DNA of 55,100 nt from a virus. Within the stretch, counting starts at the first letter, position 1; every line of letters starts with the position of its first letter. A program made the position numbers and the translations under genes. The DNA is taken from the IMG/VR virus record IMGVR_UViG_3300030328_000649, positions 1 through 55,100 of that record; one strand, 5' to 3'. Below are positions 2,205-39,222 of the stretch, one piece after another. The notes beneath the pieces were generated by a model, which saw only the letters and a list, made by a program, of their open reading frames with translations, was not told the origin of the DNA and ran no database searches.

Positions 2205-5200
2205 TTAACAGGCTAAAAAGCCACTAAAATGAGAATCTACATCCCACGAAATATCAGTTTGTGCAGTTCCACCTGATATATAGATAACCACATAAGCAGT
2301 ATCACTTGCGTCCATATCTATAAGATGCGATGCCGCGCAAGTCATATAATTTAAATCACCATTAAATTCAGTAGGGTCAAGTAAAAGACATTCATAGTTT
2401 CTATTGGTCGTTTTTAAATAAATGTGAACATAAGCGTGTGCTGAATCAACACCAGTTATGCGGAGTTGGACATTCATTTGATATTTACCATCAACAGGTG
2501 CAGTAAAAGTATTTGATGCGAAGTCTGAGTTTTGGTCAAATACTTCAGTTTCCCAAGTAACTGTAACAGCAGAATCTAATGCTATATTATATTGAAAAGC
2601 ATTTTTTTGTACTAAGAAAGCTGGTTGTAATGGTTTAGTAACTGCGCCTGTAGAGTCAATTTTTTGATGCACAACATTATTTGTGCGAAACTCCATATAG
2701 CCATTTGCTCTATTAATTACTTGAGTATTAGCACCATTTTGTGCAAATACACTTTCGCTACTTCCTGATACAGCACTAAAAGCACCTTCTGTGCCTTTAA
2801 CTTGAATAACTTTATTATACCCACCGCCATTTGTTATGCTTGTTGCACCTACTGATAAATGCCCTGCCGAAGTAAGACGCATCTTTTCGGCTGCAGCTTC
2901 AGAAGCTCCTGTCATAAACGAAAGACTTGTAGCGTTACTAGAAGAACTAAAGTCTCCTTCTGATATTGCTTGTATAGCTGCTGCAGTTAGTAGAGCATCT
3001 GTGCCTGTTCCTTCGTTAGGAGAAGAAAAACTAATCTTAGCTAGTACATCATCTGCTGCTATATCAGCTTCTGCAGTTTGTAAGTTTAAGTTAAACGTAC
3101 TATTATCTGCAGTTGCAGGGTTTTTAAGGGTAAGTGATGTAGAGTTTAAAACAGCTACTTCACTACCTTCTATATCCATTCTTATGACATCTTCGTCAGA
3201 ACTCTCCTCAACTTGAATCTTTGTATCTAGGTCAGCGTCAAGTAATTGATTAGCTGTAGTACTAGAAGTATTCGTATTTGTAATAGCTTCTACTAAGACA
3301 TCATCAGGAGGCGCAGTACTAAATGTAAGTGTAGTACCACTAATTGCGTAGTTAGACTTTGATTGGTAAACTCCATCGAAGAAAACCTGAACATTATTTT
3401 CGTGTACAGGTGCTACACTAAGAGTCAAAGTAGTATCAGAACCATCTCCTGTCATAGTGTTAATAGTATTATTAGATCCACCTACAGTTGTTGTGCTATG
3501 ATACGCTGTAATAACTCTACCGTTTGCAGGAGCTGTAGCAAACGTAAGTGTAGTTCCTGAAACTGAGTAAGTATTGTGTGCTTGGAATACACCGTCTATA
3601 AAGACCATTAAGTTATTTTCATCATCAGGAGCATTTGACAACGTGAAAGTTGTGTCTGAACCATCACCTGCGTAGATGTTAGTGTCCATATTAGTACCAG
3701 AGCCACCTCCAATACTTCCCCACGAATCCGTATACCCTTCAAATTTTCCAGTTGTACTGTTGTATCTAAAGTATCCTGCAGCACCTGTTGGTCTTTGTGC
3801 TGTTGTACCTACTGGTAAGTGCATAGCGTCTGTAAAGCTTCCAATATCCAAACTTACATCTGGTGAAGCGTTACCAATACCTACACGATTTGTCGAAGAG
3901 TCAACAACTAAAGTATTTGAATCCCAGTTAAAGTCTCCTGTACCACCAGTTAATGCTGTAAGTGTTCCAAGACTTGTCACGTTTGTCTGAGCTGCAGTAC
4001 TTAGAGTACCTGCTAATTCACCACTAGATCCATACACAACAGCTTTTGAGTTGACTACAGTATTTGCTGTTGAACCATCTAATAGATTTATTTCTGTTGC
4101 AGTTGACGTTACACCATCTAATATGTTTAATTCTGCTGCCGTGCTTGTTACACCATCAAGAATATTTAATTCGGCTGCTGTTGAAGTTACTGTTGTGCCG
4201 TTAATAGACAACGCATCTGTTTCTAATGTACCGTCTATGTCAGCATCGCCTGATATGTCAAGTGTAGCTGCATCTAACTCACCAGTTACTGTAAAGTTTC
4301 TAAGACCTGTGTAATCTTTGTTAGAGTCTAGTATAACTGCTTTAGAAGCGATTGCTGTTCCAACTGCTGTAGAACCTAAGTCTAATGCGTTAATCTCTCC
4401 AACAACTACAGTAGCTCCATCAAGTATATTAAGTTCTTCTGGTGTAGAACTAATCTGAGTAGTTGATGCAGCCGCTAATACTGGAAGAGTACCTGATACA
4501 TTCGGTAAATTAATTGTTCTATCACCTGTAGCATCTATGCTTGAAAGCGTAGTTTCGTGTGCATCTGCTGTAGCTCCTTCAAAAACTACTGCGTTACTAG
4601 CGTTCATTGTAACAGAGTTTACTGTAGTAAACGTACCCGATACAGAAACATTAGGAACAGTTAGTGTACTTGTTGATGGGTTATAGTAAAGATCTCCGTC
4701 TGATTCTAAACCTAAATTACCACCATCTAAATCTCCACCTGCTGTAAAGATAATAGCGTTGTTTTCGTTTGTGCTTTCGTTATCTGTAATTGTAACAGTT
4801 GTAGCTACTGTAGCAGTATTTACTGTAGTTCCTGCAATAACACTTGCTAAAGCTGTACCATTAACTGTAATTGCATCAGCTTCTAAAGTACCATCTATAT
4901 CTACGTCACCACTAATATCTAATGTAGCAGCATCAAGTTCTCCAGAGATTGTGATGTTTCTACCACCAGTTATGTCTTTGTTAGAATCTGTAACGATTGC
5001 TTTACTTGCAATAACTGTACCATTTGTAATACCATCTATAAGGTTAATGTCTGTAGCACTTGCAGTAACTCCGTCAAGGATATTCAATTCTGCTGCAGTA
5101 CTTGTAACTGCTGTACCATTTATAGATAATGCGTCTGTCTCAAGAGTACCATCAATATCTGCATCGCCTGAAACATCTAACGAACCTGCATCAAGTTCTC

Positions 5201-30883: not shown

Positions 30884-31446
30884 AACGACAAATAAATTTT
30901 GGAAACGAACAAAAAATCTGTATTGTTTGTTCTGTTCCTCTTGAAATAAAAGAAGTTGGTTCTTCAAAAGGTAATTGTTATTCTTATAATTATAATAAAA
31001 CTATGTATCTGTGCAACACCTGTCACAATAAGAAAAAAGAAAATGTTAAAACAAAAGCAAGACGTAATAAAACAGTTGGGGATTCTCAACACCTTCAAGA
31101 TATGAGAAGCGGTGCTAGAGATAGAGCAAAACAAAATAAAATACCTTTTGATTTGACTACACAAGACCTTCGTGATATTATATCAGATAGTTGTCCAATA
31201 CTGGGAATTAAATTTGAATTAAATAAACATAATCAAAAATGGGGAAAAGGAAAAAATAAAAATAATTGGGAAAACTCTCCTTCGTTAGATAGAATTGTTC
31301 CTGATAAAGGATATACTAAAGACAATGTTATTATTGTATCTCTTATGGCAAACTCAATTAAGAACCAAGCAACACCAGATCAGATATTAAAGGTTGGAAA
31401 ATTTTATAAAAATTTATACCAAGAAAAAGGAATAGTTAATGGCTAA
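30880..31446 (+). CDS. HNH-like endonuclease
   Basis: 188 aa. The N-terminal zinc site has CIVC and CNTCH; the core has CPILGIKFEL, then SLDRIVPDKGYTKDNVIIVS and MANSIKNQATPDQILKV, which is the phage HNH / endonuclease VII-like pattern (Asp-Arg, GY-x-x-DNV, AN-x-x-K). Its ATG overlaps the previous stop (ATGA). Two nuclease genes of homing type in a row within the replication block suggest a mobile pair. No intron is visible in the flanking genes. Confidence 0.78.
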   Translation: MKRQINFGNEQKICIVCSVPLEIKEVGSSKGNCYSYNYNKTMYLCNTCHNKKKENVKTKARRNKTVGDSQHLQDMRSGARDRAKQNKIPFDLTTQDLRDIISDSCPILGIKFELNKHNQKWGKGKNKNNWENSPSLDRIVPDKGYTKDNVIIVSLMANSIKNQATPDQILKVGKFYKNLYQEKGIVNG

Positions 31447-32308
31447 GAAGAAAAAACTAGACACACTTGTTGAAGATATATACGACAAGCTATCTGCTTT
31501 ATCGGATGGTAAACCTTTAGACCTTGACGATAAAACTATAGACGAGTTTGGCGAGTCAATGAAAAAAGTTTTACATCATTGGGCTAACCCTAGACCTAGA
31601 GATACAGCAACACTTCGTATGTCTAACATAGGTAAACCTACTCGACAGCTATGGTTTGAAATGAAGTCTGAAAACAAAGAAACTGAAAAGATAAAACCAT
31701 CTGTGTTCATTAAGTTTTTATATGGACACCTACTTGAAGAAGTGTTACTGATGTTAATTAAACTTGCTAAACATAAAGTTACAGGAGAACAGAAGGAAGT
31801 ATCTCTTCAAGGTATAAAAGGACACATGGATTGTATAATTGATGGTGAAGTAGTAGACATCAAGACAGCTTCTGGTTTCGCGTTTAAGAAGTTTAAAGAT
31901 AAAACCCTAGCCGAAGATGATGTTTTCGGTTATCTCCCTCAGTTGGCTGCTTACGAGGCTTCTATGGGTACAAACAAAGGGGGTTTCTTGGCAATGAACA
32001 AAGAGTCAGGTGAAATAGCATTATATAGACCTGATTCTTTCGATAAACCAGACATAAAAAAGAAAATAAAATCAGTTAAAAAGATGGTAAAAGTGGACAC
32101 ACCGCCTGATTTATGTTATAATCCTATACCAGATGGAGCATCAGGAAATATGAAACTTCCTAGAGGTTGTGTTTATTGTAGACATAAGTTTGAATGTCAC
32201 AAAGATTCTAACGAAGGTAAAGGACTAAGAGTATTTAAGTATGCAAAAGGATTTAATTATTTAACTCAGGTTGTAAAGACACCTAAAGTTTTGGAAGTAA
32301 CTAGATGA
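31439..32308 (+). CDS. PD-(D/E)XK exonuclease, RecB/Cas4-like
   Basis: 289 aa. Core residues: Glu100/101 (YGHLLEEVLL), Asp131 (GHMDCI), Asp140 and Lys142 (VVDIKTAS), then FGYLPQLAAYEASM. A C-terminal Cys group (CYNP, GCVYC, FEC) could hold an iron-sulphur cluster as in Cas4/AddB-type nucleases. In the T7 scheme it takes the place of the gp6 exonuclease, degrading host DNA and removing primers. It overlaps the HNH gene by 8 nt. Confidence 0.82.
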   Translation: MAKKKKLDTLVEDIYDKLSALSDGKPLDLDDKTIDEFGESMKKVLHHWANPRPRDTATLRMSNIGKPTRQLWFEMKSENKETEKIKPSVFIKFLYGHLLEEVLLMLIKLAKHKVTGEQKEVSLQGIKGHMDCIIDGEVVDIKTASGFAFKKFKDKTLAEDDVFGYLPQLAAYEASMGTNKGGFLAMNKESGEIALYRPDSFDKPDIKKKIKSVKKMVKVDTPPDLCYNPIPDGASGNMKLPRGCVYCRHKFECHKDSNEGKGLRVFKYAKGFNYLTQVVKTPKVLEVTR

Positions 32309-33255: not shown

Positions 33256-33535
33256 ATTATTATATATGATTCCGTTTTTCGGTATGGTAATAGGTTCATA
33301 TTTTATATGGACTGCAGATATTAGAGCAGCAATTATAATGGCAGGGTTAGCTCTAACACAAAGTTTAATATGCTTTACTTATCTTATAGTACAAATCGCA
33401 AACAACGGAACAGATGGAACATTAGAAGTAGAAGTACAGTTATGGGATGCGTTGATGCCGATCATATTCTTAATGTTATCTTCTACAATATTTTTATTAT
33501 TAACAACACAATTCGCAGAGACATTTTTAATATGA
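33245..33535 (+). CDS. 96-aa membrane protein, three spans
   Basis: MLSRLLYMIPFFGMVIGSYF, AAIIMAGLALTQSLICFTYL and ALMPIIFLMLSSTIFLLLTT form three membrane helices. It overlaps both neighbours (11 nt upstream, 4 nt downstream). It could be a holin or antiholin by topology, but its place in the nucleotide block and not the lysis block argues against it. Function unknown. Confidence 0.65.
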   Translation: MLSRLLYMIPFFGMVIGSYFIWTADIRAAIIMAGLALTQSLICFTYLIVQIANNGTDGTLEVEVQLWDALMPIIFLMLSSTIFLLLTTQFAETFLI

Positions 33536-35463
33536 GTACAGAACAAAATAATGTAGGACTACCTACAAACTATCAACAGTTTATACATCTTAGTAGATAT
33601 GCTAGATGGAATGAAGAACAACAACGTAGAGAAACTTGGAACGAAACAGTCTCTCGATACTTTGATTTCTTTGAAACACATCTTAAAGAAAACCACAACT
33701 TAAGTAAGTCACAGTTTGATGAGACTAGAAAGTACTTAGAGAAAGCTGTACTGTATCTAAACATTATGCCAAGCATGAGAGCATTGATGTCAGCAGGTAC
33801 AGCATTACAAAAAGATAATGTTGCAGGATTTAACTGTAGCTATGTAGCTGTAGATAATGTCAGAGCTTTTGATGAAACATTATACATACTTATGTGTGGT
33901 ACTGGTGTTGGGTTTAGTGTTGAGCGTCAATACATAAATCAATTACCAGATCTTCCAGAAGATTTGTTTCCTACTGATACAGTTATTAAGGTAGCTGACT
34001 CTAAGATTGGGTGGGCAAAAGCATATAAAGAATTATTATCCTTGCTTTATGCAGGACAAATACCTACATGGGATGTATCTAACATCAGACCTTATGGTGC
34101 TAGACTTAAAACATTTGGTGGTCGTGCTAGTGGTCCTGCTCCGCTTGAAGAGTTATTTGATTTTACTATCAACATATTCCGTGATGCTATTACAAAAGGA
34201 CAGCGTAAGCTAGTGTCCATAGATTGCCATGATTTGATGTGTAAGGTCGCAGAAGTGGTAGTCGTAGGTGGAGTAAGGCGAAGTGCTTTAATCTCTCTCA
34301 GCAACCTCTCAGACAACCGTATGCGTAATGCTAAGTCAGGTGCATGGTGGGAAGATAATCAGCAGAGAGCTTTGTCTAATAACTCTGTATCTTACACAGA
34401 TGCTGCAGAAACTGGTGCATTTATGCGTGAATGGTTATCACTATATGAATCTAAAAGTGGTGAACGTGGTATCTTTAATCGTCAAGCAGCAGAGAAACAA
34501 GCTGCTAAGAACGGAAGAAGAGAAGAGTATAAACATTTCGGATGTAATCCATGTAGTGAAATCATCCTACGCAACAAACAGTTCTGTAATTTAACTGAGG
34601 TTGTTGTTAGACCTGACGATAATGAAGATACTTTAATAGCTAAAGTAAAAGCTGCTACAGTTCTTGGTACGTTTCAAGCTACGCTTACAAACTTTAGATA
34701 CTTGACAAGTAAGTGGAAACATAATACAGAAGAAGAATCTTTACTTGGTGTATCTCTTACAGGGATCATGGATAATAAAGATATGATAAATGGTAAAATA
34801 GATTTAGATAAATTAAAAAATGTATCTATTGATTTAAATAAAGTATGGGCTAAGAAGCTAGGTATTCCCCAATCAGCCGCCATAACTTGTGTCAAACCTA
34901 GTGGAACAGTTAGCCAACTGGTCGATAGTGCTTCTGGTATTCACACTAGACATAGCCCATACTACCTTCGTACAGTAAGAGCAGATAAAAAAGATCCTTT
35001 AGCTAAGATGATGGTTGATGCAGGAGTATACCATGAAGATGATCTTACTAAACCAGAACATACTTTGGTATTTTACTTTCCAATGAAAAGTCCTAAAGGT
35101 GCGTTGACTAGAAAAGATTTGTCAGCTACTGAACACTTAGAAGTCTGGAAAGATTATCAAGATAAGTGGTGTGAACATAAACCCTCTGTAACTATCTCAG
35201 TCAAAGAAGATGAATGGTTAGAAGTAGGTGCTTGGGTATATAAAAACTTTGATGATATATCGGGTATCTCTTTTCTTCCATACTCAGATCACTCATACAA
35301 GCAAGCTCCCTATCAGGAGATAACTTACAATGAGTATAGGAAATGGCTAAAGAAAACTACTGACACAGTTGATTGGTCAAAGATTACTGAATATGAAACA
35401 GAAGATAATACTGAAAATACTAAAGAGCTTGCGTGTAGTGCAGGTACATGTGAGATTATTTAA
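33532..35463 (+). CDS. nrdJ: Ribonucleotide reductase, class II (B12-dependent)
   Basis: 643 aa from ATG 33532, which overlaps the previous stop (ATGA); a longer frame from 33370 only runs through the membrane-protein gene. Motifs of the monomeric adenosylcobalamin type: GFNCSYV (Cys102), NPCSEI (Cys341, Glu343), CVKPSGTVSQLVDSASGIHT, and a C-terminal CSAGTC pair for redox relay. It makes dNTPs (from NTPs in the monomeric type) and needs host vitamin B12. Class II is usual in marine podophages. All catalytic residues are present. Confidence 0.93.
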   Translation: MSTEQNNVGLPTNYQQFIHLSRYARWNEEQQRRETWNETVSRYFDFFETHLKENHNLSKSQFDETRKYLEKAVLYLNIMPSMRALMSAGTALQKDNVAGFNCSYVAVDNVRAFDETLYILMCGTGVGFSVERQYINQLPDLPEDLFPTDTVIKVADSKIGWAKAYKELLSLLYAGQIPTWDVSNIRPYGARLKTFGGRASGPAPLEELFDFTINIFRDAITKGQRKLVSIDCHDLMCKVAEVVVVGGVRRSALISLSNLSDNRMRNAKSGAWWEDNQQRALSNNSVSYTDAAETGAFMREWLSLYESKSGERGIFNRQAAEKQAAKNGRREEYKHFGCNPCSEIILRNKQFCNLTEVVVRPDDNEDTLIAKVKAATVLGTFQATLTNFRYLTSKWKHNTEEESLLGVSLTGIMDNKDMINGKIDLDKLKNVSIDLNKVWAKKLGIPQSAAITCVKPSGTVSQLVDSASGIHTRHSPYYLRTVRADKKDPLAKMMVDAGVYHEDDLTKPEHTLVFYFPMKSPKGALTRKDLSATEHLEVWKDYQDKWCEHKPSVTISVKEDEWLEVGAWVYKNFDDISGISFLPYSDHSYKQAPYQEITYNEYRKWLKKTTDTVDWSKITEYETEDNTENTKELACSAGTCEII

Positions 35464-35690: not shown

Positions 35691-36134
35691 CTATTTAATC
35701 TTTATAGATACAGGTTTGTCTTCTTCTGGAACAATACGTTCCATTTTAATAGTCAACATTCCATCTTTAAGTTTAGCATCTTTGATTTCAATATCATCAG
35801 CAAGATTGAAACTTCTTTTAAAGTTTCTATTTGCTATACCTCTGTGAAGAGTTTGAAAATCAGCAGGATAGTTTTCATTATTTTTATCTATTGAAGAACC
35901 TTTAATTGTTAATGTATTTTTTTCTTGAACAACATCTAAGTCTTCTTTAGATATACCTGCAACTGCCATCTTAAGTTCATAAGTATTTTCTTTCTTGGTC
36001 ATGTTGTAAGGGGGATAACCTGAACCTCTGTCAATATTTTGCAAGCGATACATGTCGTTGAACAAAGCATCGAATCCAATAAATGAGTTTGAGAATATAG
36101 GTTTAGTGAGGTCTAATAAGAATTTATTAGTCAT
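35691..36134 (-). CDS. Small heat-shock protein (Hsp20 / IbpA-like)
   Basis: 147 aa. The alpha-crystallin domain begins YPPYNMTKKENTYELKMAVA, continues GISKEDLDVVQEKNTLTIKG, and ends GMLTIKMERIVPEEDKPVSI with the IXI-like tail ISIKIK. The N-terminal arm (FIGFDALFNDMYRLQN) is IbpA-like. It holds unfolded proteins, and hsp20 genes are frequent in marine phages. It is a single-gene unit with a perfect promoter and a leader with a thermometer-like hairpin. It runs opposite to the genes on its downstream side. Confidence 0.93.
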   Translation of the reverse strand: MTNKFLLDLTKPIFSNSFIGFDALFNDMYRLQNIDRGSGYPPYNMTKKENTYELKMAVAGISKEDLDVVQEKNTLTIKGSSIDKNNENYPADFQTLHRGIANRNFKRSFNLADDIEIKDAKLKDGMLTIKMERIVPEEDKPVSIKIK

Positions 36135-36141
36135 AGTATTT

Positions 36142-36162
36142 ACTCCTTTTTATTAAGCAAGT
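36142..36162 (-). promoter_or_regulatory. ROSE-like RNA thermometer over the hsp20 ribosome site
   Basis: On the minus strand ACTTGCTT (36162-36155) pairs with AAGGAGT (36148-36142) through 7 bp with one bulged G and a 6-nt loop (AATAAA). The sequence T-T-G-C-T opposite AGGA with a bulged G is the conserved core of ROSE thermometers found before ibpA-type genes in proteobacteria. The ATG follows 7 nt later. A second hairpin ATTGGTG / CGCCAAT lies upstream in the leader. Heat would open the weak stem and free the ribosome site. Confidence 0.72.
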
Positions 36163-36206
36163 GTTATTGTTATTATTGGCGCACATTATGCCACACCAAT
36201 ACTTAT

Positions 36207-36235
36207 ATTATAAGGTCATATTTAAACTTTGTCAA
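36207..36235 (-). promoter_or_regulatory. Perfect sigma-70 promoter of hsp20
   Basis: TTGACA (36235-36230), a 17-nt spacer, TATAAT (36212-36207) on the minus strand. Expected start near 36200, leader about 66 nt. It allows expression of hsp20 apart from the late genes. Confidence 0.92.
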
Positions 36236-36243
36236 GTTTTTTT

Positions 36244-37395
36244 TTAACTTCCTTGACGTATTGTTATTGTAGAACTGCTTCCACCATTTGTAGTAATCTG
36301 ATTTACTTTACCTTCTTGTTCTATTGTTATGTTGTATGATCCTGCTTTATCTACTTTCATTTCTAACGTATCTTCTATAGCTCTTAGAAACTTTAAATGC
36401 GTATCAGTTATGAAGGTACTTATCTGTGTGTCACTATCGTATCCTACTGCTGTACCTTTTACTCCGTCAGCCGATAAAGATTTCTCAGCTTTACTAAGTT
36501 CATCAACCTCTTGTATCACATCAAGAAGATCTTCTAAAAAATTACCTGCTAGATAATCTATGTCTAGCTCTGTGTATTCTAATTCGTTATCTTTTAGTTC
36601 GTCTGTGTCAAGCTCGTTAAAGTCTAACAAGTCTACATCAAGTATGTTATCTGCTACTGTGTTACCTTCATCTGATTCTGATTCTTCTCTTTGAGGTGGA
36701 TTAACAATTAACATATTATCAATCATGTCTAAAGTTAAATCTAATATTACTGCTGGTGTTGGAGCTGTCTCAAAGTTATAAACAGTTGTAGCTTCATAAG
36801 GTCTATTTAATATAACTTGACCTAATGCAGTATTAACTGTTATTTCACCGCTTGCATCACCGAACTCGTCTGGTAAAAGTATTACCAAAGCTTCTCCAGT
36901 TTCTTTTACAGTTATTGTAAAGTCTGTACCTCTTATTCCAATAGTAGCAGCATGTGTCCTTACAGTAATGTTGTCGTTAGGTATACGTTTCTTTTTACTG
37001 GATATAAATCTACCAGTACCCTTAACAAAATTAAGAGCCATACTAGACTTACTTGGATTAGGATCAAACACAAACTCATCAATAATAACATTACTGTGTT
37101 CTGTTAAACGTATGGTAGTTTCATCCCTAAACGTAACACCCATCCTGCCTTTAGCAGTTTCAAGTTTATCCATAGCATTAAGAGAAAAGTCTATTGAACT
37201 TTCGTATGGTTTGTCTCTTACTACTCTGGTGTTTCCGTTTAGTTCTGTAATACTTCCTATATCAACATCCAACTGCTGTGCCTTGATCGTCCTGATTAAC
37301 GCATACTGTTCCGTTGTTTCCGTCAGACACAATGCGCAACCAATCATTATCCAAAGTAGACTGTTGATCCACCGCAAACGACCTTGAGTTACCAT
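36244..37395 (-). CDS. FecR-domain protein with curlin-like tail
   Basis: 383 aa if started at ATG 37395; an upstream ATG at 37467 is also in frame. The chosen start gives a plausible signal segment (RLRWINSLLWIMIGCALCL). A FecR-type domain follows: DVDIGSITELNGNTRVVRD, FRDETTIRLTEHSNVIIDEF, and RTHAATIGIRGTDFTITVKE. The middle is acidic (LDVDLLDFNELDTDELKDNE). The last 30 residues (ITIEQEGKVNQITTNG, then TITIRQGS) read like one curlin repeat pair. The start overlaps the curlin-like gene by 134 nt. It may anchor or nucleate the curlin-like protein; this is inference. Confidence 0.75.
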   Translation of the reverse strand: MVTQGRLRWINSLLWIMIGCALCLTETTEQYALIRTIKAQQLDVDIGSITELNGNTRVVRDKPYESSIDFSLNAMDKLETAKGRMGVTFRDETTIRLTEHSNVIIDEFVFDPNPSKSSMALNFVKGTGRFISSKKKRIPNDNITVRTHAATIGIRGTDFTITVKETGEALVILLPDEFGDASGEITVNTALGQVILNRPYEATTVYNFETAPTPAVILDLTLDMIDNMLIVNPPQREESESDEGNTVADNILDVDLLDFNELDTDELKDNELEYTELDIDYLAGNFLEDLLDVIQEVDELSKAEKSLSADGVKGTAVGYDSDTQISTFITDTHLKFLRAIEDTLEMKVDKAGSYNITIEQEGKVNQITTNGGSSSTITIRQGS

Positions 37396-37969
37396 CGTGT
37401 TCCAACTTGAAATAACCGCCTGCATATCCATCTCCATCATAGTTAACTGTGTTACTATCTCCATCAAGATCTATGTAGTTTGTAGCTGAGTCTACATCTA
37501 AATCAATATTAAGAGTATTTGAATCTCCTTGTACTATAGTATCTATGTCTGCTCCACTAGATAAACTGTTAGTCGCTAGATCAAGAGTAAATGTATTTGT
37601 ATTACCATCAACATCTACGTTTACATTTGCATTGTCTGCTGAGTAAGTATTAGTAGGATCAACTTGTATAGTAAAACTATTTGTATCTCCGTCAAAATCA
37701 AATATACCAGTAAAGGTATCTGAGTTTATATCACCAAGCATCTTGTTGTTGTTACCTATTTGATTTACATCTAGCGTCATTGTAGTACCATCAAGATCAA
37801 ATGGAGTCATAGATCCATGTGTTGATAATAGTCCACCTATTATGTTACCGCTTCCAAGTTGTTCTAAATCTATGTTAGCTGTCGCACCGACTTGATCTAC
37901 ATAGATCTCATTATCATCAGCTATTACGCTACATGATATAAGTAACAATAAGCTAATTAGTTTCTTCAT
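37262..37969 (-). CDS. Curlin-like secreted repeat protein
   Basis: 235 aa. Signal peptide MKKLISLLLLISCSVIA followed by DDNE. The mature part has Q-x-G-x-x-N motifs typical of curlin (VDQVGATANIDLEQLGSGN, LDVNQIGNNNKM), then about six strand-turn repeats centred on DG(D/N)-x-N (DGDTNSFTIQV, DGNTNTFTLDL, QGDSNTLNIDL, DGDSNTVNYDG, DGNSRSFAVDQ). The end has two Cys (VCVNQDDQGTAVGC). It is probably exported by the adjacent CsgG-like pore. Its ATG overlaps the CsgG stop region by 17 nt. It is more acidic than E. coli CsgA, so fibre formation is not certain. Confidence 0.78.
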   Translation of the reverse strand: MKKLISLLLLISCSVIADDNEIYVDQVGATANIDLEQLGSGNIIGGLLSTHGSMTPFDLDGTTMTLDVNQIGNNNKMLGDINSDTFTGIFDFDGDTNSFTIQVDPTNTYSADNANVNVDVDGNTNTFTLDLATNSLSSGADIDTIVQGDSNTLNIDLDVDSATNYIDLDGDSNTVNYDGDGYAGGYFKLEHDGNSRSFAVDQQSTLDNDWLRIVSDGNNGTVCVNQDDQGTAVGC

Positions 37970-38774
37970 ATTCCCAATACCCCCTGATTATTCCTGTTTT
38001 AATTATTTCTAACACACCTTCTTCTATTGCCTGTTGAAGAGCTATTGAACTTGATTCATTTTCTGATGCTCCTCCTTCTATCTCTACAAGCTCTGTTCCA
38101 TTAGAAACAAACCGAAACAAATCTTGAGAAAGTCCTACTGATATAACACTCTTACTAACTAACACTTCTACTAATACTTCTCCTGTTGAAACAGAAACTA
38201 GCCTAAGTGAAATAGTTATTAAGTCTTCTCTGTACTCTTTACTTGAACCTATTCCCAAGTATCTAGCACCGATACCACCACTTCTAATATTAGAATCTAT
38301 TGAAATCACAGCACCCTGTACCAGTAATCCTGCCAGTAAAAGAGGTTTGACGCTGTTGTCCTCTTCAAAAGATTCCCTTGTACTGCGTATAAGTTGTCTT
38401 TCTTTAGTTAAACTGTCAAGACCTACACGTTCTGCTACTTGGAAAAACTTTCCATTAGCTGCGTGCTTTAAAGCTCTAATAAGAAAAGCTTCTGGTGCTT
38501 GTGTAATAGCTGTAGAAAATAAAGCAAACTGTCCGTTGCTTCTACGTTGTCCTGTTTGATCTTTAAAACTATTAGGATAAATAGCTATAACTGGTTTTCT
38601 TTTTGCAGCAGGTATGCTCTTTAATTCTTCTGATTGTAAATCTAATACAGAAGCTTTTTCAATAATAATATAAGGAAGACCACCTTCTTCTAATAACGAA
38701 CTGTATCTAGGCGCACAACTAGAAAGTAAAACTACCGATAGGAACAGTAATGCTAGTCGTACCTCCAGTTTCAT
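37953..38774 (-). CDS. csgG: CsgG-like outer-membrane curli export pore
   Basis: 273 aa from ATG 38774; an in-frame ATG at 38819 is less likely. Lipoprotein signal with lipobox LLSSC (MKLEVRLALLFLSVVLLSSC). Alignment by eye with E. coli CsgG: DQTGQ for DETGQ, LFSTAI for NFSTAV, ERVGLDSLTKERQLIRS for ERQGLQNLLNERKIIRA, SNIRSGGIGARYLGIGS for SNVKSGGVGARYFGIGA, VSTGEVL, and RGYWEY for RGLWDL. The family forms a nonameric pore. Of the known constriction residues (Tyr51, Asn55, Phe56) only the Phe seems kept. The start overlaps CsgF by 56 nt. Confidence 0.9.
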   Translation of the reverse strand: MKLEVRLALLFLSVVLLSSCAPRYSSLLEEGGLPYIIIEKASVLDLQSEELKSIPAAKRKPVIAIYPNSFKDQTGQRRSNGQFALFSTAITQAPEAFLIRALKHAANGKFFQVAERVGLDSLTKERQLIRSTRESFEEDNSVKPLLLAGLLVQGAVISIDSNIRSGGIGARYLGIGSSKEYREDLITISLRLVSVSTGEVLVEVLVSKSVISVGLSQDLFRFVSNGTELVEIEGGASENESSSIALQQAIEEGVLEIIKTGIIRGYWEYEETN

Positions 38775-39222
38775 CTGTAATCGTAAGCGTGATAAGCTCA
38801 TTTTCAACTTTGTATTCAATAGTGTTTCCCTCTAGCTCAAGTGAACCTGATGTTTGTGGTGTCTCTCCGAACAGTTGTTCTACCATTTGTCTCGATAGCT
38901 GTGCATAGATTCTGCTTTCTAGGTTTCTTATAAACCTTGCAAGTGTAGTGTTGTCTGCTTCTCTAGCTAACTCATCTTGATATGCTTCTATCTCTTCTTT
39001 AATATCTTTAACTCTTGTAGACTCTTGGTTTTCTATAGTAAGATAGTGACTTGATGTATTTATACCAGAGAAACTAGGACTTTTAAACTTGTAAAGTATT
39101 TCGTCAGCTTTTAATGCGTCACTAAAAAAAATTAACATAAACAAAAAAATAAAATTAAATACAAACAATAAATTAATAAGTGTATGTGCTGATATATTTT
39201 TAATCTTTTCTTTGATCTTCAC
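38719..39222 (-). CDS. csgF: CsgF-like curli assembly factor
   Basis: 167 aa. The signal peptide is long (hydrophobic residues 15-34), with cleavage expected after ALKA. The mature start DEILYKFKSPSFSG matches the CsgF head (TMTFQFRNPNFGG), the part that inserts into the CsgG channel. A helical middle (FIRNLESRIYAQLSRQMVEQ) and a beta end (ITLTITDETGGTTSITVPIG) also match the CsgF plan (LQLNVTDRKTGQTSTIQV). It precedes csgG as csgF does in enterics. It overlaps the upstream membrane-protein gene by 23 nt. Confidence 0.88.
   Translation of the reverse strand: MKIKEKIKNISAHTLINLLFVFNFIFLFMLIFFSDALKADEILYKFKSPSFSGINTSSHYLTIENQESTRVKDIKEEIEAYQDELAREADNTTLARFIRNLESRIYAQLSRQMVEQLFGETPQTSGSLELEGNTIEYKVENELITLTITDETGGTTSITVPIGSFTF

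Follow-up and report, generated by a model that had tools for sequence, protein, structure and literature searches.

A putative ROSE-type RNA switch in the leaders of phage hsp20 and other phage chaperone genes

Known thermometers closest to the phage leader

What defines RNA thermometers of the ROSE-like class is a U(U/C)GCU motif carried by the hairpin nearest the 3' end (PMC3669281, PMC11342760). In the short ROSE element of Pseudomonas ibpA (Rfam RF02523, ROSE_3; Krajewski et al. 2013), a leader of 61–62 nucleotides (nt), hairpin I stays folded and hairpin II alone suffices for thermoregulation (PMC3669281). Here we describe the leader of an hsp20 gene in a 55,100-nt stretch of viral DNA, hereafter the window (IMG/VR virus record IMGVR_UViG_3300030328_000649, positions 1 to 55,100), and propose that the phage hsp20 leader is probably a short two-hairpin ROSE-type translational switch. 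Like the Pseudomonas element, it comprises two hairpins in a leader of about 60 nt before a small heat-shock gene, sets U(U/C)GCU with a bulged G on the Shine-Dalgarno (SD) sequence in the 3' hairpin, and leaves the AUG unpaired; the UGCC...GGG loop in hairpin I of a Pseudomonas ibpA leader in our set (L043) is likewise common to most phage leaders. It differs in belonging to a marine phage, in having a plain sigma-70 rather than a sigma-32 promoter, in its shorter and far less stable hairpin II (−3.0 versus −8.0 kcal/mol at 37 °C), in a hairpin I sequence of its own, and in a ROSE_3 score below the Rfam cut-off. The E. coli ibpA ROSE (RF01832, ROSE_2) and the ibpB leader carry the same U(U/C)GCU/SD hairpin as the phage, but in E. 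coli ibpA additional hairpins lie upstream, and the element reaches 100 bits with ROSE_2, as no phage leader does.

The lambda cIII thermometer works through alternative folds. The known phage thermometers are this one and those of SPbeta blyA (a fourU element, PMC10586365) and of a sigma-70 gene of a gut Caudoviricetes phage (also fourU, PMC11182007), all of which are cis-acting and thermosensing, as the leader described here is presumed to be. They involve other motifs and genes and are single cases, whereas the ROSE-type element recurs on chaperone genes across many phage lineages. The cyanobacterial hsp17 thermometer (PMC4477652) likewise occupies the short leader of a small heat-shock gene, but consists of one hairpin with the start codon in its stem, whereas cyanophage hsp20 leaders are of the two-hairpin ROSE type. 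In open full-text papers we found no description of a thermometer on phage hsp20, dnaK or groES (subscription journals and preprints lay outside this search), in keeping with the original prediction for this locus, which knew of none on a phage hsp20 gene. Two studies of the small heat-shock proteins of cyanophages make no reference to one, and the text of a 2025 jumbo-phage paper on DnaK, DnaJ and HSP20 does not contain 'thermo'. The ROSE class itself is known; its spread across phages and the operon logic described below appear to be new. The ROSE type would join the short list of phage thermometers and extend it to phage dnaK and groESL. The hsp20 gene is described as a core gene of T4-like cyanomyophages (PMC9004378), and such phages are abundant in the sea. 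RNA gating of hsp20 would open to direct test, by reporter fusions and cultured phages, the way in which a major group of marine viruses reacts to warming or to the burden of folding capsid proteins.

Structure of the hsp20 leader

The gene hsp20 (35691–36134, minus strand, ATG at 36134) encodes a 147-amino-acid small heat-shock protein with an alpha-crystallin domain (Pfam PF00011, E = 3.6e-16; PHROG 432 'Hsp20 heat shock protein', E = 1.1e-39). Its leader on the same strand, GUAUUGGUGUGGCAUAAUGUGCGCCAAUAAUAACAAUAACACUUGCUUAAUAAAAAGGAGUAAAUACU-AUG, is about 66 nt long and forms two hairpins. Hairpin I (36174–36201, minus strand; UAUUGGUGUG-loop-UGCGCCAAUA), with 10 predicted pairs, occupies the leader's presumed 5' end and is predicted to stay folded at every temperature from 5 to 50 °C. 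Hairpin II, the SD hairpin (36142–36162, minus strand), consists of ACUU[G]CUU, the loop AAUAAA and AAGGAGU, the bracketed base being bulged. Here the anti-SD sequence ACUUGCUU (36162–36155) faces the SD sequence AAGGAGU (36142–36148, minus strand), with the bulged G at 36158. It is this hairpin, the one closer to the gene, that contains U(U/C)GCU. This bulged-G hairpin is the exact minimum-energy fold at 5–15 °C; from 20 °C upwards it is narrowly outscored by a shifted register that still covers much of this SD sequence. The AUG is unpaired from 10 to 50 °C in the predicted folds. Both the masking of AAGGAGT around a bulged G in T-T-G-C-T and the second hairpin upstream, as originally described, are therefore present, the former in the sequence and in the 5–15 °C fold, the latter at 36201–36174.

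The leader in the window combines the motif, SD pairing around a bulged G and two hairpins (the ROSE class has two to four) before an Hsp20 gene. Two other thermometer types were considered and ruled out: the fourU type, in which four successive U residues pair with AGGA of the SD, by sequence, as the anti-SD CUUGCUU lacks UUUU, and the cyanobacterial hsp17 type by the presence of two hairpins and an unpaired AUG instead of one hairpin with the start codon in its stem. In most phages (for example L014, L032, L035 and L296) hairpin I echoes hairpin II, with U/C, a bulged G and C-G pairs (YGCY...RGG); this form of hairpin I shows C-G/U-A covariation at its last pair and is absent from the window and from the HTVC115P group.

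Upstream lies a sigma-70 promoter (36207–36235, minus strand), with TTGACA at 36235–36230, a 17-nt spacer and TATAAT at 36212–36207. The description of this promoter as perfect is borne out by agreement with the consensus at 12 of 12 positions; it is the sole such match within 7 kb, its −35 and −10 boxes are retained or nearly so in the relatives L001–L012, and its spacing predicts a transcript start near 36200.

Occurrence on phage hsp20 genes

Scanning 1.11 Mb of phage sequence (both strands, loci including near-duplicates) for the pattern U(U/C)GC(U/G)-SD-AUG gave 124 sites at hsp20 starts and eight elsewhere. Those eight comprise the copy in the window, one Pseudomonas ibpA, two sites before a small gene at the head of an hsp20 operon, and four unexplained sites. 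Among distinct phage hsp20 leaders, 78 of 86 bear the motif, and their phages include cyanophages, pelagiphages, a methylophage and jumbo phages, with the cultured carriers HTVC115P, HTVC103P, Mosig, HTVC008M, Melnitz, P-RSM1, Bellamy, S-SM2, Syn1, Atu_ph07 and Callisto. The divergent leaders without the motif mostly retain the geometry, read directly as AACU[G]UCU...GGAGGUU in L140–L147 and as AUAAC[G]CUU...GGAGGUUAU in L094, L101 and L123. Other SD-led genes of the window have no U(U/C)GCU element.

A reverse search of IMG/VR with the exact pattern ACTTGCTTAA-N(1-8)-AAGGAG-N(3-9)-ATG, blind to gene content, returned at least 120 stretches. Among the matches listed, hidden Markov models identified 105 of 120 downstream open reading frames as hsp20, with another three being hsp20 cut at contig ends; four encode DnaK, one GroES and two small phasin-like proteins such as also occur within hsp20 operons, with five left over. 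About 115 of these 120 are chaperone genes or chaperone operons. Judged from these sequences, the putative ROSE-type element is near-universal on sampled phage hsp20 genes and is not special to the window phage. It is the comparison across phages, and barely the folding energy, that sets the leader apart from chance. The original assignment to the ROSE type is upheld: the leader has U(U/C)GCU, a bulged G, an arrangement in two hairpins and the expected target gene, and the element is conserved across very divergent phages.

A protein of 79–90 amino acids with a weak Phasin_2 match (E = 0.014) follows the element in L097 (1189–1484), L106 (from about 1180), L161 and L210; it directly precedes hsp20 in the first two and stands alone in the others.

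Elements before phage dnaK and groES

The motif is also found in 47 of 64 distinct viral dnaK leaders, and the other 17 present AUCUU[A]CUU...AAGGAGAU, in which the same stem has an A as its bulged base. Among phage groES leaders, 12 of 23 carry the motif. Pfam confirmed Hsp70 and Cpn10 for the dnaK and groES matches, and among the neighbouring products on these contigs are tail-fibre-like and virion proteins and phage-type proteins of nucleotide metabolism. In ten dnaK contigs (L277, L281, L285, L296, L301, L308, L327, L336, L342 and L351) the model places an element ahead of dnaK and a second ahead of the downstream hsp20, at about 1430–1502 and 3390–3468. Since the same element appears to gate dnaK, groES and dnaK-hsp20 operons, it may belong to a wider module of chaperone control that phages and bacteria share.

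The bulged-A form lies in the last 30 nt before the ATG of dnaK in L299, L302, L305, L311, L314, L316, L318 and others; in L316 it precedes both dnaK and the following groES, and in L318 both dnaK and hsp20. The groES leaders L371 and L373–L385 have no U(U/C)GCU and share a conserved hairpin, GCACUGCCACU...GGAGUGC, with a possible UUUCC/GGAGA pairing.

Covariance model and covariation

A covariance model, R1, was built from 54 phage leaders with the window and its relatives excluded. Its best match in the 55-kb window is the hsp20 leader (36136–36185, minus strand, 18.4 bits, E = 0.0055). Applied to 70 phage loci (235 kb), R1 gave 68 matches at E ≤ 1, all at the starts of hsp20 or of hsp20 operons, and in 15 kb of E. 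coli its sole match is the ibpB leader (E = 0.069). A second match in the window (31743–31794, plus strand, 15 bits, E = 0.053) lies inside an open reading frame for a Cas4-type exonuclease (31439–32308), away from any gene start, and is probably due to chance. R1 recognises the Pseudomonas ibpA leader L043 only weakly (E = 0.086), and a blastn comparison of the Pseudomonas ibpA region with E. coli sequence gave no match. The L043 record (OQ572409.1, 'Pseudomonas phage Y7', UNVERIFIED, 22.6 kb) has an hsp20 that looks like bacterial Pseudomonas ibpA and a ROSE_3 match of 69 bits, and may be host DNA.

Hairpin I covaries strongly. Across 42 diverse leaders, 87.6% of cells are paired and seven of nine pairs show double changes, with a covariation score of 0.724 against 0.269 ± 0.023 in shuffled and at most 0.21 in slid controls, both of which leave the relatedness of the leaders in place. 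The alignment of both hairpins in 54 leaders, built from leaders of equal loop length because variable loops otherwise mis-set the SD sequence, scores 0.335 against 0.157 ± 0.010 when shuffled. For hairpin II in these 54 leaders, three of eight pairs show one type only or only unpaired departures, two change on one side only (C-G/U-G), and two outer pairs show double changes and are formed in only about 30%. With independent registration of 245 leaders, the first outer pair, which occurs as U-A, A-U or C-G, is formed in 39% compared with 27% after shuffling (maximum 33% in 2000 shuffles). Nine leaders of the group to which the window belongs share an identical hairpin II, which, being invariant, speaks neither for nor against pairing there. 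The covariation sought in related hsp20 leaders by the original prediction was thus found for hairpin I, where it is strong across distant phages and includes one G-C to A-U double change in the near relatives L008, L009 and L010; for hairpin II, invariant nearby, it is confined to outer pairs in distant phages.

Bacterial counterparts

The window terminase is 64–68% identical to those of the pelagiphages HTVC115P, HTVC104P and HTVC103P, a resemblance that makes a SAR11-type host likely; a megablast search of phage records gave no match to the window. The best bacterial relatives of the window Hsp20 are marine and at most 49% identical. Several marine alphaproteobacteria, SAR324 and others have nearly the same two-hairpin leader on their hsp20 genes (20–60 bits with R1). 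SAR11's own hsp20 leader differs (UCGCUUAAGGAGGAUU), with weak or no R1 matches, so that the phage cannot simply have copied the element of its probable host. The SAR11 hsp20 leaders L390–L405, L438 and L451 are of the UUUAAUCGCUUAAGGAGGAUUAAA type with further upstream hairpins, and are possibly another undescribed thermometer.

The near-identical leaders in marine alphaproteobacteria and SAR324, together with a tree in which phage and bacterial Hsp20 proteins interleave (with support too weak to give a direction of transfer), would fit an element left over passively after a bacterial ibpA was recently transferred along with its leader. We regard such an origin as highly improbable: the window Hsp20 has at most 49% identity to the bacterial ones found, but the motif has stayed intact and compensatory changes have arisen in hairpin I, which argues that the element is kept under selection.

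Evidence for and against a temperature switch

By analogy with Pseudomonas ibpA, hairpin II should block the SD sequence when cool and open on warming. In the mechanism that we propose, a constitutive host-type promoter would supply the hsp20 transcript, and hairpin I would fold first at the 5' end and remain folded. Hairpin II would then pair U-U-G-C-U with the SD sequence around the bulged G, excluding ribosomes, until warming or another destabilising influence opened it and allowed quick synthesis of Hsp20 from existing RNA. The predicted SD accessibility at 10 °C is 0.20 for hsp20 leaders, 0.40 for other window genes and 0.31 with shuffled upstream sequence, a modest separation. The ensemble energy of hairpin II is −6.8, −5.3 and −3.0 kcal/mol at 10, 20 and 37 °C, that of the Pseudomonas ibpA hairpin −8.0 at 37 °C and −6.9 kcal/mol at 42 °C. 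As the phage hairpin is the weaker, the phage switch would thus be tuned to a lower range, fitting the sea.

Several observations weigh against a thermosensing ROSE element. The promoter is of the ordinary sigma-70 type. SD exposure is predicted to climb from 0.26 at 5 °C to no more than 0.46 at 50 °C, and the curves of the whole phage set are equally shallow, although these are nearest-neighbour calculations and the non-canonical contacts of ROSE elements (PMC11342760) lie outside the model. Hairpin II already equals the Pseudomonas 42 °C value near 10 °C, and on this naive calibration it could be largely open at sea temperature, even at 10 °C. The leader's fold energy is ordinary (z = −1.3, with 21 of 200 shuffles folding equally well), its hairpin I lacks the YGCY...RGG loop typical of most relatives, and the SD-pairing core, invariant except for U-G/C-G, is for that reason untouched by the covariation test. 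The 'heat-controlled unit' of the original prediction accordingly divides: the bulged-G hairpin was recovered by folding at 5–15 °C, while melting was shallow and another register prevailed from 20 °C, leaving temperature as a presumed signal.

Comparison with Rfam is similarly divided. ROSE_3 gives the best E-value for the window among all 4227 Rfam families, at 16.1 bits (E = 0.36), far from its gathering cut-off of 43 bits, and no family matches the window at gathering thresholds. On Melnitz, ROSE_3 reaches 34.1 bits (E = 0.0013). Across 20 hsp20 loci, the gathering thresholds admit only a Pseudomonas ibpA record and a tRNA. Curated models alone would thus miss the leader, and the phage leaders point to a family that these models overlook.

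Shallow melting and ordinary fold energy would also suit an SD hairpin that does no more than hold translation at a low rate whatever the temperature, or shield the end of the mRNA, its resemblance to ROSE arising from SD complementarity in AU-rich DNA; anti-SD sequences are constrained by the SD sequence. We consider this explanation unlikely. A perfect anti-SD would suffice for such damping, yet the bulge is retained or swapped for a bulged A, and the bulged-G U(U/C)GCU persists across phages whose proteins are 30–45% identical. The motif is moreover almost confined to chaperone genes and lacking from the window's other SD-led genes.

Hsp20 as a possible repressor of its own leader

E. coli IbpA binds and represses its own 5' untranslated region until titrated by aggregates, and this self-repression requires R93, two cationic residues (R97 and K98) and, at position 34, an aromatic one (PMC10474464). 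In two sets of phage Hsp20 proteins, the R93 equivalent is retained in 104 of 105 and 93 of 96 (197 of 201 in all), an aromatic residue at 34 in 105 of 105 and 95 of 96, and R or K at 97 in 101 of 105 and 95 of 96. The window Hsp20 has Y, R and R at positions 34, 93 and 97, its Arg103 (codon at 35826–35828, minus strand) aligning with IbpA Arg93. Given the retained arginine, the signal for the switch may be aggregation.

Possibly, then, the ROSE-type switch could respond chiefly to protein aggregation, with Hsp20 binding its own leader, stabilising the closed form and repressing itself, and with unfolded or surplus virion protein titrating Hsp20 away so that hsp20 (elsewhere dnaK and groES) is translated. 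We advance this tentatively. Besides the IbpA precedent (PMC10474464), three of the four IbpA residues are retained in phages, which makes aggregation sensing a serious rival or partner to temperature, and in E. coli IbpB, a protein that lacks self-repression, position 93 is Q. Such sensing would also account for strong conservation in a thermally stable ocean. K98, required in E. coli, is however mostly Q, S or T in phages and S in the window, and the arginine could instead serve oligomer structure.

A broader and rather doubtful extension of the ROSE-type switch is that phages run an RNA-gated chaperone regulon of their own. A ROSE-type leader, sometimes doubled within an operon, would gate hsp20, dnaK and groESL, and misfolded virion protein would titrate off the Hsp20 repressor; the switch would then read the folding load of assembly, with temperature as a second input.

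Neighbouring genes

Directly upstream of the hsp20 promoter lie curli-type genes (36244–39222, minus strand) encoding CsgG (E = 1e-45), CsgF (E = 3e-19), a FecR-domain protein and a repeat protein. CsgF and CsgG have been reported from pelagimyophages and Melnitz (PMC9004378); those of the window sit in a relative of the HTVC115P/HMO-2011 group. On the plus strand, 33526–35463 encodes a B12-dependent (class II) ribonucleotide reductase, where the related HTVC115P has annotated alpha and beta ribonucleotide reductase subunits.
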